Source: Candidatus Woesebacteria bacterium
GTDB taxonomy: Bacteria; Patescibacteriota; Microgenomatia; UBA10105; UBA927
Length of the DNA stretch: 33,886 nucleotides
NCBI GenBank assembly: GCA_018062625.1
Contig: JAGORV010000001.1
Span: 1 to 33,886 of the forward strand
Direction: 5' to 3'
Shown here: one piece after another, positions 21,402 through 33,252 of the stretch
Layout of the letters: the number at the start of each line of letters is the position of its first letter
Numbering within the stretch: the stretch's first letter is position 1
The notes under the pieces: model-generated
Told to the model about the DNA's origin: nothing
Database searches by the model: none
What the model saw: only the letters and a program-made list of their open reading frames with translations
Program-made: the position numbers and the translations under genes

Positions 21402-21433
21402 TTGAGTATATGGATAAAGGCTGATAGAATCAA
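21402..21433. promoter_or_regulatory. interlocked divergent promoters (gltX and the unknown membrane protein)
   Basis: On +: TTGAGT (21402-21407), 17 nt, TAGAAT (21425-21430) with TG one base upstream. On -: TTGATT (21433-21428), 17 nt, TATACT (21410-21405). Each -10 overlaps the -35 of the other. The gltX ATG lies only 7 nt after its -10. Confidence 0.75.
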
Positions 21434-21437
21434 TCGT

Positions 21438-22829
21438 ATGAACGTGCGTACGCGTATAGCTCCATCTCCCACAGGATTTCCTCATATAGGCACTATTTAT
21501 CAGGTGCTTGTCGACTTTGCTTATGCTAGGAAATTTAATGGAAAGTTTGTCATGCGACTAGAAGATACAGATCGAGCACGATTTATCGAGAATGCAGAAG
21601 AAGTCATCTATAGTGCATTGTCTTGGTTTGGATTAACTCCCGATGAAGATCCTAAGCGCGGTGGACCATTTGCGCCGTACAGACAGTCAGAACGATTAGA
21701 TATATACAAAAAATATGCAGATCAACTACTTAGCGCAGGGCATGCGTATTATTGTTTTTGTACAAAAGAGCGGTTAGAACAAATGCGAAAAGATCAGGAG
21801 GCCAAACACGAGCCGCCTATGTACGACAAGATGTGTATGCATCTTACAAAATCTGAAGTGGAGGAAAAATTATCACGAGCAGAAGCGCACGTGGTTCGTA
21901 TGAAAATACCAGAGCACGAAAAAATTATTGTGCCTGATGTAATCTGTGGAAATATTGAATTTGAAAGTGATGTTATAGATCATCAAGTGATCATAAAGTC
22001 CGATGGGTATCCTACATATCATTTTGCTGTAGTCGTCGACGACCATCTTATGGAGATAACCCATATCTTTCGCGGTAAAGAATGGATTCCTTCGACTCCT
22101 AAACATGTGTTACTGTACCAGTATTTTGGATGGACAATGCCTATACACGGGCATCTTCCGCTTATATTAAATGAAGATGGAAAAGGAAAGCTATCCAAGC
22201 GTCATGGGCATGCTTCTGTGGATTATTATCGTAAGCTTGGGTATTTGCCGGAGGCTGTGCTTAATTATCTCTCTAATATTGTCTGGAATCATCCCGAGGG
22301 AAAAGAGATATACAAGCTCGAAGAATTTATACAAAATTTTGATATCACACAGATCACTTCTCAGGCGCCACGATTTGATTTAAAAAAACTTGATTGGGTA
22401 AATAGTACATACATTCGAAATATGACTGATAGCGAACGGGTTAAACGCCTTATTGAATTTGATTCTAAAATCGCAGCTCTGGATCAGACACTATTGATCA
22501 CTGTGATGCCACTTATAAAAGAGCGCATGAGAACGTTGAGTGATTTTTGGCCACTCGCTGGATTTTTCTTTGCAAGACCCACCGAGTATGAGCAGTTGTT
22601 TGTATCTGAGCAGATAGCAGTACTAAAATCTGCGCTCGCAGAATGCGAATGGACACACAAAGCCATGGAAGAAGCTATTCGTATATCTTCAGAAAAAGCA
22701 GGCATGAAAGCACGCGATGTGTTTATGGAGCTTCGTATGGCAGTAACAGGGAAAACCATAGGGCCACCCTTGCTTGAATCGCTAGAGATTTTAGGAAAAG
22801 AAGAGACACTATCTCGATTAGAGATGTAA
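21438..22829 (+). CDS. gltX: glutamyl-tRNA synthetase
   Basis: A 463-aa class I synthetase. The HIGH-type motif is APSPTGFPHIGT (residues 8-19) and the KMSKS-type motif is GKLSKRHG (about residue 250). Between them stand RLEDTDRARF, YRQSERLDIYKKYADQLL, FCFTKERLE-like CFCTKERLEQMRKDQ and GYPTYHFAVVVDDHLMEITHIFRGKEWI. It charges tRNA-Glu; with no GlnRS in view it may also charge tRNA-Gln, which is a guess. The ATG at 21438 is supported by the family N-terminus and by a promoter whose -10 is 7 nt upstream, implying a leaderless mRNA. It converges on era with 4 bp between stops. Confidence 0.96.
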   Translation: MNVRTRIAPSPTGFPHIGTIYQVLVDFAYARKFNGKFVMRLEDTDRARFIENAEEVIYSALSWFGLTPDEDPKRGGPFAPYRQSERLDIYKKYADQLLSAGHAYYCFCTKERLEQMRKDQEAKHEPPMYDKMCMHLTKSEVEEKLSRAEAHVVRMKIPEHEKIIVPDVICGNIEFESDVIDHQVIIKSDGYPTYHFAVVVDDHLMEITHIFRGKEWIPSTPKHVLLYQYFGWTMPIHGHLPLILNEDGKGKLSKRHGHASVDYYRKLGYLPEAVLNYLSNIVWNHPEGKEIYKLEEFIQNFDITQITSQAPRFDLKKLDWVNSTYIRNMTDSERVKRLIEFDSKIAALDQTLLITVMPLIKERMRTLSDFWPLAGFFFARPTEYEQLFVSEQIAVLKSALAECEWTHKAMEEAIRISSEKAGMKARDVFMELRMAVTGKTIGPPLLESLEILGKEETLSRLEM

Positions 22830-22833
22830 AAAT

Positions 22834-23694
22834 TTACACATGATCCATCCAGTGTGGATCCGTTTCGACCGTGAGGTCTAAAAATACTTTTTTCCCAGAA
22901 GCTACTTCTAATTCTTTTCTGGCTGTTGCTCCTATTTCTTTGATCATGCGAGCATCTTTGCCTATGATCATACCTTTGTATCGATCTGCCGCTGTAAGTA
23001 TGCGTGCTTTGATATAGAGGATTCCATTGGCACGTTCATCAAGTTCATCAACGACTGCGGTTATGGCATATGGAACTTCTTTACGAAGTTCCAAAAATGC
23101 TTTCTCTCGAATAATTTCTGCGACAAATGTTTTGCTGTCGATGTTTATTCCTGGTTGTGACATGACAGTACGATCTACCATAGGTGTCCCTTCTGGTAGT
23201 AGTTCAAAAATTGCATTCAACAGTAGGGGGATGTGCTTACCTTCTTTGGCTGAGAGCGAGACAACGTGATCAAATTCCGCTTCCATAAACTTATATTGGA
23301 CTATAAACGTAGGCTCTTTTACATCTACTTTATTTATTACCAATATTTTAGGGACTTTGACTTTGCGTACTATTCCAAGAGCTCTGTTTTCTTCCTCTGC
23401 CCGTTCTCTGGTATGGTCGACGATGTAGGCGATCACATCGACCCCCTGTTCCACCGCTGCTTCTGTACGAGCATTTATTCGACCAGAAATCTGATCTTTG
23501 ATTTTCGCAAATACCCCTGGAGTGTCCACAAACACTATTTGGCCTCGTTCGTCCTCAAAAACTGCCTGTATAGGAAATCTCGTCGTTTGTGGCTTAGGAG
23601 ATGTGATGGCCACTTTGTGGCCCAAGATGTTATTCAAAAGCGTTGATTTGCCTGCGTTTGGTCTACCGATAAGCGCTACGATACCTGCCTTCAT
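22834..23694 (-). CDS. era: GTPase Era
   Basis: A 286-aa protein with G1 GRPNAGKS (residues 10-17), the switch region ITSPKPQTTRFPIQAVF, G3 VDTPGVF, and G4 NKVD. The C-terminal KH domain follows (REKAFLELRKEVPYAITAVVDE, ARILTAADRYKGMIIGKDARMIKEIGATARKELE). Era binds the 3' end of 16S rRNA and assists 30S assembly. The length is normal. TACAAT (23706-23701) lies 6 nt before the ATG, so the transcript is probably leaderless. The promoter overlaps that of the divergent sigma factor gene. Confidence 0.95.
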   Translation of the reverse strand: MKAGIVALIGRPNAGKSTLLNNILGHKVAITSPKPQTTRFPIQAVFEDERGQIVFVDTPGVFAKIKDQISGRINARTEAAVEQGVDVIAYIVDHTRERAEEENRALGIVRKVKVPKILVINKVDVKEPTFIVQYKFMEAEFDHVVSLSAKEGKHIPLLLNAIFELLPEGTPMVDRTVMSQPGINIDSKTFVAEIIREKAFLELRKEVPYAITAVVDELDERANGILYIKARILTAADRYKGMIIGKDARMIKEIGATARKELEVASGKKVFLDLTVETDPHWMDHV

Positions 23695-31991: not shown

Positions 31992-31998
31992 TAAATTT

Positions 31999-33207
31999 CT
32001 ACAGATTCTCGTCCCAGAGCATGATTCCTCTATTTTTGACTACTATTAAACTCTCGCCATAATTCGCAATTTTCAGCTTTTTTCTAAGTCTTGAAATCAT
32101 TTTGTCTTGTGCCCAGAGAGAGAATGAATCGTAGTTATCGTCCCATATAAGCTTTTGAACATCTTCTTTTGGCACCAGCGTATTTTTCTTTGATTTGAGA
32201 TATTCATAAAGTTGTAATTCACGACCCGTGAAAAAGCTTATACCACTTTTAGCTATGACATCATCAGCGAGATTGGCGCAGTAGTCGAAAAAGAGTTTTG
32301 AATGAATTTGTAAGTCATTTATTATCGGAATAGCGTCTCTTCCTATTTGTCCCTTTGCATACTTTATGATCAATCGCTGGTTTTCTAAACTGAATGTTTT
32401 TCTATATTCTTCCAAGTATTGGGTAATGATGGGATTATTTTCGAGAACTTTGAGCCAATTTTCGGTAAATCCATCTTTTTGTAGTATCAAAAACGCATCA
32501 TAAATTAACGAGTAATTTCCTCCACAGTACGTATAAATCTTTTTTCTCGTTTTGACATCAAGCGTCATGTTGTAGCGGTCGGCAAATATGTCTATCCAGT
32601 ATTCTGTTTCACTAGGCGTGAGATCTGGGAAGTAGAGAATAGATTCGCAGAGGGGATAGGTAAGTTTTTCCAAAAAGGCAGATGTTTTCATTTCCATGGG
32701 GTTTATGTCGTCGAGCAGAAACCAAAACGAACAAGCGGGAAGGGTAACTATTTTGCGCGTTCTGTAAAGCGTAACAAGCGACTCTGCTGCTGTGGGGTGT
32801 ATATCTTTGAGTCGTTCTATTTTATAGAAAATTATCACAAGTCTTTTGCCTGTGTCCGATAGCCTGGTGATGTATTGCTGTAATGCTCCTAGCAGCACCG
32901 CGGTATCTTCAGTCACCGTGTGTTTGTAGTTTGGATCTGTTTGCGAGATGGCGATGCTTAGCTGGTGAAGCCAATAGTAAGGATTTGCAGAAATGAGAAG
33001 TGTAGGTTCGAAAAACACGATAACAGCGTCTTTTGGCAAATAGTCCGTAAATTCCGATCGATTTCCCAAAACATACTGGAGGAGCCCTGACTTGATAGAT
33101 TTATAGGTTCCGACGATGCTCCCTGATTTTCCTATAGATAGTTCCTTAAAAAACGGAGACAACCTCTTGAGGATCTCCTTTTGTGGCAGTGGCTGATGCT
33201 TTTGCAT
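31999..33207 (-). CDS. STAND-like ATPase fused to OmpR-type winged helix
   Basis: A 402-aa protein. Residues about 25-200 look like an AAA/STAND NTPase with altered motifs. The P-loop position reads GTYKSIKS, with Ile where the second Gly is expected, and the Walker B strand reads LVIIFYKIERL, with Tyr for the usual Asp. A helical region with SETEYWIDIFADRYN and YCGGNYSLIYDAFLIL follows, as in STAND sensor helices. The last about 75 residues (FFTGRELQLYEYLKSKKNTLVPKEDV..SRLRKKL..IVVKNRGIMLW) fit an OmpR/PhoB winged helix. It is probably a transcription regulator. The start at 33207 has TGG TATAAT 6 nt upstream. Confidence 0.7.
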   Translation of the reverse strand: MQKHQPLPQKEILKRLSPFFKELSIGKSGSIVGTYKSIKSGLLQYVLGNRSEFTDYLPKDAVIVFFEPTLLISANPYYWLHQLSIAISQTDPNYKHTVTEDTAVLLGALQQYITRLSDTGKRLVIIFYKIERLKDIHPTAAESLVTLYRTRKIVTLPACSFWFLLDDINPMEMKTSAFLEKLTYPLCESILYFPDLTPSETEYWIDIFADRYNMTLDVKTRKKIYTYCGGNYSLIYDAFLILQKDGFTENWLKVLENNPIITQYLEEYRKTFSLENQRLIIKYAKGQIGRDAIPIINDLQIHSKLFFDYCANLADDVIAKSGISFFTGRELQLYEYLKSKKNTLVPKEDVQKLIWDDNYDSFSLWAQDKMISRLRKKLKIANYGESLIVVKNRGIMLWDENL

Positions 33208-33213
33208 GCGTAA

Positions 33214-33252
33214 ATTATACCACATATGTCAGGAAAAGTCAGGATAGAGTCA
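33214..33252 (-). promoter_or_regulatory. regulator promoter with three GTCA direct repeats
   Basis: TGG TATAAT (33222-33214) gives an extended -10, with CTGACT (33242-33237) as -35 at 17 nt. GTCAGGA at 33228-33234 and 33238-33244 and GTCA at 33249-33252 (+ strand) recur every 10-11 bp over the -35 region, the spacing of OmpR/PhoB-type direct-repeat operators. Confidence 0.65.

Follow-up and report, generated by a model that had tools for sequence, protein, structure and literature searches.

What does a −10 promoter box placed directly before a start codon mean for the way a gene is expressed? The question is raised by a stretch of a Candidatus Woesebacteria genome (phylum Patescibacteria; positions 1–33886 of contig JAGORV010000001.1, the whole stretch of 33,886 nt being called the window here), in which a sequence-only reading had picked out seven genes, with era as a poorer eighth, whose −10 box ends only 6 or 7 nt before the ATG and which it took to be leaderless. 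All eight boxes and spacings are found in the sequence where that reading placed them (table 1); seven of the eight, era included, exceed the cut-off of 6.5 in our scoring matrix, and the box of an 88-aa transmembrane (TM) open reading frame (ORF) falls below it. The TG said to extend most of the boxes (TGn) is present in six of eight and missing at era and the malic enzyme gene. We find that a class of genes with a −10 box 6–7 nt before the ATG exists genome-wide, and the best explanation, which the promoter spacing makes very probable in our judgement, is that these genes would be transcribed into leaderless mRNA from a sigma-70-type −10 element abutting the ATG.

The assembly has a size of 1.07 Mb in 70 contigs and is 88% complete, and our genome sample (G000) consists of 334 kb from nine contigs, window included. 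Because these contigs were picked via a pattern search for the −10 motif itself, the leaderless fraction in this sample may be slightly high. Stretches from a genome of the same genus (G137) and one of the same family (G101), picked through a match to era, were used as comparison samples. Boxes were scored with a matrix trained on 77 strict sites that includes the TGn positions, the gap was counted as the number of nt between the end of the −10 hexamer and the start codon, and ATGs inside genes, scored with the same cut-off, provided the background. Further controls comprised a gap-by-gap profile, the other reading frames, and a start choice blind to the box.

The gap profile has a sharp peak at 6–7 nt. 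TANAAT occurs before 596 in-frame ATG candidates in G000 34 times at gap 6 and 13 times at gap 7, with a background mean of 2.2 per gap at gaps 25–40, and frames +1 and +2 of the same regions contain none at gaps 6–7. The profile repeats across samples (49, 27, and 26 at gap 6 in G000, G137, and G101; means of 2.3, 1.8, and 2.0 at gaps 13–44). A qualifying box precedes 70 of 363 genes versus 7 of 5169 internal ATGs in G000, 49 of 392 versus 3 of 5105 in G137, and 52 of 443 versus 8 of 4678 in G101, and with the box-blind start choice 58, 45, and 45 genes, respectively, still qualify. By these counts the leaderless-type mode would comprise roughly one gene in five in the G000 sample and about 12% in the samples of the two relatives. 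On control stretches, the strict matrix found 0 of 42 and the looser TANNNT 2 of 42 in E. coli; on a D. deserti plasmid, intended as a positive control, the figures were 1 of 30 and 11 of 30, and the low strict score there is in line with PMC3160421, whose accessible part gives a looser motif for high-GC (guanine plus cytosine) groups.

That two modes of initiation coexist, as had been proposed, is borne out by genes led by a Shine–Dalgarno (SD) site in the same window and by the 16S gene, which retains an intact anti-SD tail (GGATCACCTCCTTT). A full SD site precedes the secreted protein with ATG 30571 as described; another, attributed to a DUF5679 gene, is found before a small minus-strand gene with its start at 8180, and the equation of that gene with the DUF5679 gene is a guess. 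As scored, the two modes fall short of covering the genome, since 215 of the 363 genes in G000 have neither an SD match (at least 4) nor a strict −10 box at their start. Part of this number is due to the insensitivity of the SD rule, which finds only 17 of 42 in the E. coli stretch; genes with weak boxes, translational coupling, or wrongly assigned starts may add to it.

Membership in the class tends to be shared by orthologues: among reciprocal best pairs, class labels agree with an odds ratio of 10.7 (p = 7e-5, 88 pairs) for G137 and 8.05 (p = 0.002, 92 pairs) for G101. For individual genes, footprints were taken before the in-frame start nearest the aligned start, ignoring the box in the choice and counting our own locus. 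A −10 box is found at gap 6–10 in 22 of 24 gltX loci of the family (17 at 6–7, five at 8–10), and the starts of the 24 orthologues lie within 2 codons of each other. For era, where nine of 30 loci were left out as other GTPases (L045–L053, E > 1e-7), the box stands at gap 6–9 in 13 of the 21 loci kept from the taxonomic class, 10 of them at 6–7, and several orthologues begin a few codons further upstream. For obg, from which partial or weak matches (L132–L147) were left out and to which two loci from a separate look-up were added, it stands at gap 6–7 in 12 of 16 loci. The EamA orthologue is leaderless-type in G137 and not in G101. Across the phylum, TGNTANAAT is followed by ATG after 6 nt (N6) at 1302 sites in 96 genomes and after 16 nt (N16) at 294, N6 exceeding N16 in 86 of the genomes and not in 10. 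The N16 spacing was added as a control because a reversed pattern could not be trusted alone, promoters themselves being enriched.

Interlocked divergent promoters at gltX

Upstream of gltX lies a short element whose 18 defined positions are the exact union of two promoters, one for each strand. The gltX side has −35 TTGAGT and −10 TAGAAT, the opposite strand −35 TTGATT and −10 TATACT; both spacers are 17 bp, and each −35 overlaps the −10 of the other strand. Among the 24 family gltX loci, all 18 bases are present in 18, 17 of 18 in two, and the element is degraded in four. Allowing at most one mismatch, it occurs in 25 of 187 genomes of the taxonomic class (14 in the family and 11 outside). 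We inspected 12 of these loci (11 outside the family, one inside) and found it in every one between gltX and the same divergent gene; unlike the set of 24 from the family, these 12 had been picked by means of the pattern. The middle of the element is variable except for the TGn of the gltX promoter, present in 28 of 29 distinct copies, and position 11, which is often G (22 of 29). A search of this genome that allowed up to two mismatches gave no second copy. The distance to the start codon varies on either side: the gltX start is 6–10 nt away in the family, and the start of the divergent gene is 6 nt away in three loci.

The two −10 positions would place the divergent transcription starts about 40 bp apart. 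Bidirectional promoters in E. coli and Salmonella share their −10 element and have starts mostly 18 bp (also 10 and 23 bp) apart, as described in the accessible parts of PMC12825309 and PMC10268837. By the shared −10 definition of Warman and Grainger, with starts 7–25 bp apart and mostly 18, the element at 21402–21433 would not be of this kind. It resembles those promoters in serving both strands with one short, partly symmetric sequence, and differs from the type as the accessible text presents it in that the −10 is not shared and each −35 overlaps the opposite −10.

Leaderless transcripts weighed against other explanations

The distance from a −10 element to the first transcribed base is usually 6–8 nt, so a gap of 6 would put the transcription start on the A of the ATG. 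From this geometry we infer that a sigma-70-type −10 ending 6–7 nt before the ATG would make RNA polymerase start at that A or no more than about a base away from it, that the resulting mRNA would have no leader and hence no SD site, and that the ribosome would initiate directly on the 5′-terminal AUG. The housekeeping sigma factor is the likely reader of these boxes, because only two proteins with sigma-70 region 2 were found in the 88%-complete genome, a housekeeping-like one of 375 aa and a small extracytoplasmic function (ECF)-like one beside era. The mode would coexist with SD-led initiation and be somewhat commoner at genes that come first in a transcript than at close-packed ones; leaderless-type starts are found at 39 of 164 transcript-first-like genes (divergent or >100 nt behind their neighbour) versus 13 of 120 genes closely behind another gene (p = 0.005), a modest preference.

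The box and its spacing can be read from the DNA itself, as can the agreement between orthologues and the spacing of a −35 element. Pooled over the three samples, −35 matches of at least 4 of 6 bases number 44 at spacers of 16–18, where the average of 5.5 at each of the other 15 spacers would give about 16 per three, and both G137 and G101 show this excess clearly. A TGn stands before the box in 39 of 70, 21 of 49, and 24 of 52 class members in G000, G137, and G101, respectively.

Several observations weigh against the leaderless reading or take support from it. Considered by itself, G000 shows a weak −35 excess (14 vs about 7 expected), and the TGn counts are partly circular, as the TGn positions belong to the matrix that defines the class. 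SD sites precede 1 of 171 class members versus 171 of 1027 other genes in the three samples, but this scarcity is largely forced because the −10 box occupies the place of the SD site; of the 171 SD matches in other genes no more than 17 fall outside the position that the box takes up, so that geometry by itself predicts about 3 in the class, and we rejected SD exclusion as independent support. We likewise rejected a pyrimidine at −1 as a sign of the start site, which is general at starts in G000, only an excess of C being specific to the class (27 of 70 genes vs 53 of 293 others, p = 6e-4). A T at −1 is strong in all three samples, outside the class too (196 of 293 other genes in G000). Exclusive use of ATG is not claimed for the class, GTG and TTG starts amounting to only 15 of 363 genes and one obg orthologue having GTG at gap 6. 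The orthologue lacks a box for 9 of 20 leaderless-type genes in G137 and 10 of 17 in G101, in part through misassigned starts and in part perhaps through real turnover, the real or apparent changes running both ways. In 20 stretches from the phylum, drawn from contigs of the 16-nt list, 25 of 343 ORFs have a box at 6–7 nt versus 7.7 expected, a modest excess, and seven of the 20 are without any; together with the N6 excess these counts point to a mode that is widespread across the phylum but uneven in strength. In other families as many as 125 nt separate this promoter from the gltX start codon; at the same time, a promoter kept at varying distances from the start codon supports reading the boxes as promoters. 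Finally, TANAAT still occurs 6–8 times per gap at gaps 8–11 in G000, a mild excess that reaches background beyond 11 nt.

Because gaps 8–11 are also raised, some class members probably have leaders of 1–5 nt. That transcription starts 1–5 nt before the ATG at many genes, giving near-leaderless mRNAs with the same behaviour, appears unlikely: gaps of 8–10 in five of the 24 gltX loci of the family fit such leaders, yet the profile peaks sharply at gap 6, followed by gap 7, and at the usual distance of 7 nt the +1 position falls on the A of the ATG or beside it. We think it a little less plausible still that the boxes are real while at many genes most of the mRNA has a leader and arises from upstream promoters or read-through. 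Thirteen class members do lie <30 nt behind a same-strand upstream gene; in the window, however, gltX, era, obg, malic enzyme, EamA, and the regulator are all at divergent starts, and mutY is preceded by a terminator-like hairpin with a T run.

It is very improbable that the hexamer is a translation element, an A/U-rich ribosome or S1 site, instead of a promoter. Non-SD A/T-rich upstream signals occur in other phyla, their reading being disputed in the accessible part of PMC5397173, and our genome encodes a protein with four S1 domains; but the −35 excess at 16–18 bp, the preference for transcript-first-like genes, and the gltX element, in which both hexamers and their 17-bp spacing are retained as the start codon shifts, all speak against a ribosome site, and the Deinococcus motif, according to the accessible part of PMC12340547, interacted with sigma and was not replaceable by a ribosome-binding site. 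Chance can be practically dismissed, for although −10-like hexamers come cheap in A/T-rich spacers of DNA with a GC content of about 42%, the gap, frame, internal-ATG, and N16 spacing controls all speak against look-alikes near starts.

Genes of the window

Table 1. Promoter boxes and genes, with positions in the window
Feature	Positions	Strand	Details
Interlocked divergent promoter TTGAGTATA-N14-TAGAATCAA	21402..21433	both	32 bp, 18 defined positions
−10 TAGAAT, TGn extended, of gltX	21425..21430	+	gap 7 to ATG 21438; score 8.2
gltX, glutamyl-tRNA synthetase, predicted leaderless	21438..22829	+	Pfam tRNA-synt_1c 6.6e-107
−10 TACAAT of era, without TGn	23701..23706	-	gap 6 to ATG 23694; score 7.6
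era-type GTPase (GTPase + KH_2), predicted leaderless	22834..23694	-	domain search
−10 TAGAAT, TGn, of mutY	26022..26027	+	gap 7 to ATG 26035; score 9.4
mutY-type HhH-GPD glycosylase, predicted leaderless	26035..26862	+	domain search
−10 TACAAT, TGn, of obg	28318..28323	-	gap 6 to ATG 28311; score 9.95
obg GTPase, predicted leaderless	27337..28311	-	Pfam GTP1_OBG from residue 3
−10 TATAAT of malic enzyme, without TGn	28385..28390	+	gap 6 to ATG 28397; score 8.0
Malic enzyme, predicted leaderless	28397..29590	+	domain search
−10 TATAGT, TGn, of EamA transporter	30435..30440	-	gap 7 to ATG 30427; score 8.5
EamA-family transporter, predicted leaderless	29582..30427	-	domain search
Weak −10 TATTAT, TGn, of 88-aa TM ORF	31566..31571	-	gap 6 to ATG 31559; score 5.45
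−10 TATAAT, TGn, of OmpR-type regulator	33214..33219	-	gap 6 to ATG 33207; score 12.1
Regulator, C-terminal Trans_reg_C-like domain, predicted leaderless	31999..33207	-	Trans_reg_C 1.5e-5, 25.4 bits, just below 26.2-bit cut-off
Divergent gene beside gltX, N-terminal TM anchor + extracytoplasmic domain, YycI/YycH/YpeB-like predicted fold	20331..21389	-	AlphaFold pLDDT 88

The top score among the window genes belongs to the OmpR-type regulator. For obg the automatic start choice had picked an upstream GTG at 28404; we set the start at 28311 because the GTP1/OBG domain begins there and orthologues start there. The 88-aa TM ORF, for which the automatic choice favoured 31652 and which has no Pfam or NCBIfam match, is a doubtful member of the class. 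At mutY (26022–26037) the ATG of the longest ORF (26026) overlaps the gene's own −10 box, so a gene finder that takes the longest ORF would put the start inside the promoter. The small ECF-like sigma gene and era diverge (23695–23724) with −10 boxes that nearly touch (ATTATA-G-TACAAT), and the same string recurs upstream of era in G137. Just beyond the window, contig positions 34597 (minus strand) and 36017 (plus strand) are strong leaderless-type starts with scores of 9.3 and 9.1.

The gene divergent from gltX, which encodes a protein of about 352 aa, stands beside gltX in 24 of 24 family loci and in the 11 loci of other families that were inspected. Its product has no Pfam match (E 0.001), no NCBIfam match (E 0.1), and no sequence match in the PDB. 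A first structure model built from 8 sequences was poor (predicted local distance difference test, pLDDT, 62) and was replaced by the final one from 28 sequences. Foldseek relates this model to chains of 5coz and 2o3o (E 1.5e-6 to 3.2e-4) at template modelling (TM)-scores of only 0.28–0.42, and structure comparison gave Z 8.2–10.5 and a root-mean-square deviation of 5.8–7.2 to 5coz, YpeB, YycH, and YycI entries, the next row having Z 5.2; families missing from these lists are not thereby excluded. The predicted protein has a possible resemblance, at modest TM-scores, to the extracytoplasmic regulators YycI, YycH, and YpeB.

Relation to known leaderless genes

Genes of this kind are already known from other phyla, and leaderless mRNAs in general are reported to show reduced sensitivity to kasugamycin. 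In the TA-led leaderless genes of Zheng et al. (2011), a TAtAAT-like signal lies about 10 nt ahead of the start; these genes form a minority next to SD-led ones, with shares of around 20% in Actinobacteria and 40% in Deinococcus–Thermus, according to the accessible part of that paper (PMC3160421). The class described here is like them in signal position, in a TG peak (seen there in several lower-GC genomes), and in being a minority beside SD-led genes. Of the features that mark TA-led genes, we find the signal about 10 nt upstream, a modest transcript-first preference, and a conservation among orthologues that is incomplete, with turnover; SD sites are lacking, in large part because of where the box lies. 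The groups named in the accessible part of PMC3160421 do not include Patescibacteria or the candidate phyla radiation (CPR), and one genome is called unclassified there. In Deinococcus–Thermus, promoters with a "−10 region adjacent to ORF" drive leaderless mRNA, and direct initiation on a 5′-terminal start codon is described for leaderless mRNAs elsewhere (PMC12340547, accessible part). Those promoters, which likewise place the −10 motif directly before the start codon and stand beside SD genes, were tested experimentally according to the same accessible text, whereas ours are known from sequence alone.

The leaderless group of GeneMarkS-2 is reportedly that of Lomsadze 2018. Such a group is described in the accessible part of PMC9581028. 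Among the matches listed for the open-access literature, we found no recognisable report of leaderless genes in the CPR or Patescibacteria; PMC6851277 and PMC7441243 have the word "leaderless" in their reference lists only, and PMC12641178 uses it for YchF in its Discussion and in one reference. The mode is thus apparently undescribed for Patescibacteria in the literature searched.

We put forward tentatively, as a proposal somewhat short of even chances, that the leaderless mode is phylum-wide and possibly ancestral in Patescibacteria, that it covers core genes (a tRNA synthetase, Era, and Obg), and that the mode is tied, at gltX, to the gene of a YycI/YycH-like envelope protein by near-unchanging interlocked promoters that allow just one gene to be read at a time. 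The Patescibacteria form a vast and for the most part uncultured group whose genomes are very small. Should about one gene in five indeed be leaderless in some lineages, SD-based gene finders may place many starts wrongly, and these reduced cells would depend for translation on a mode that is mostly discussed in connection with Actinobacteria and Deinococcus. A simple rule could then reannotate starts and predict transcript starts across the Patescibacteria.

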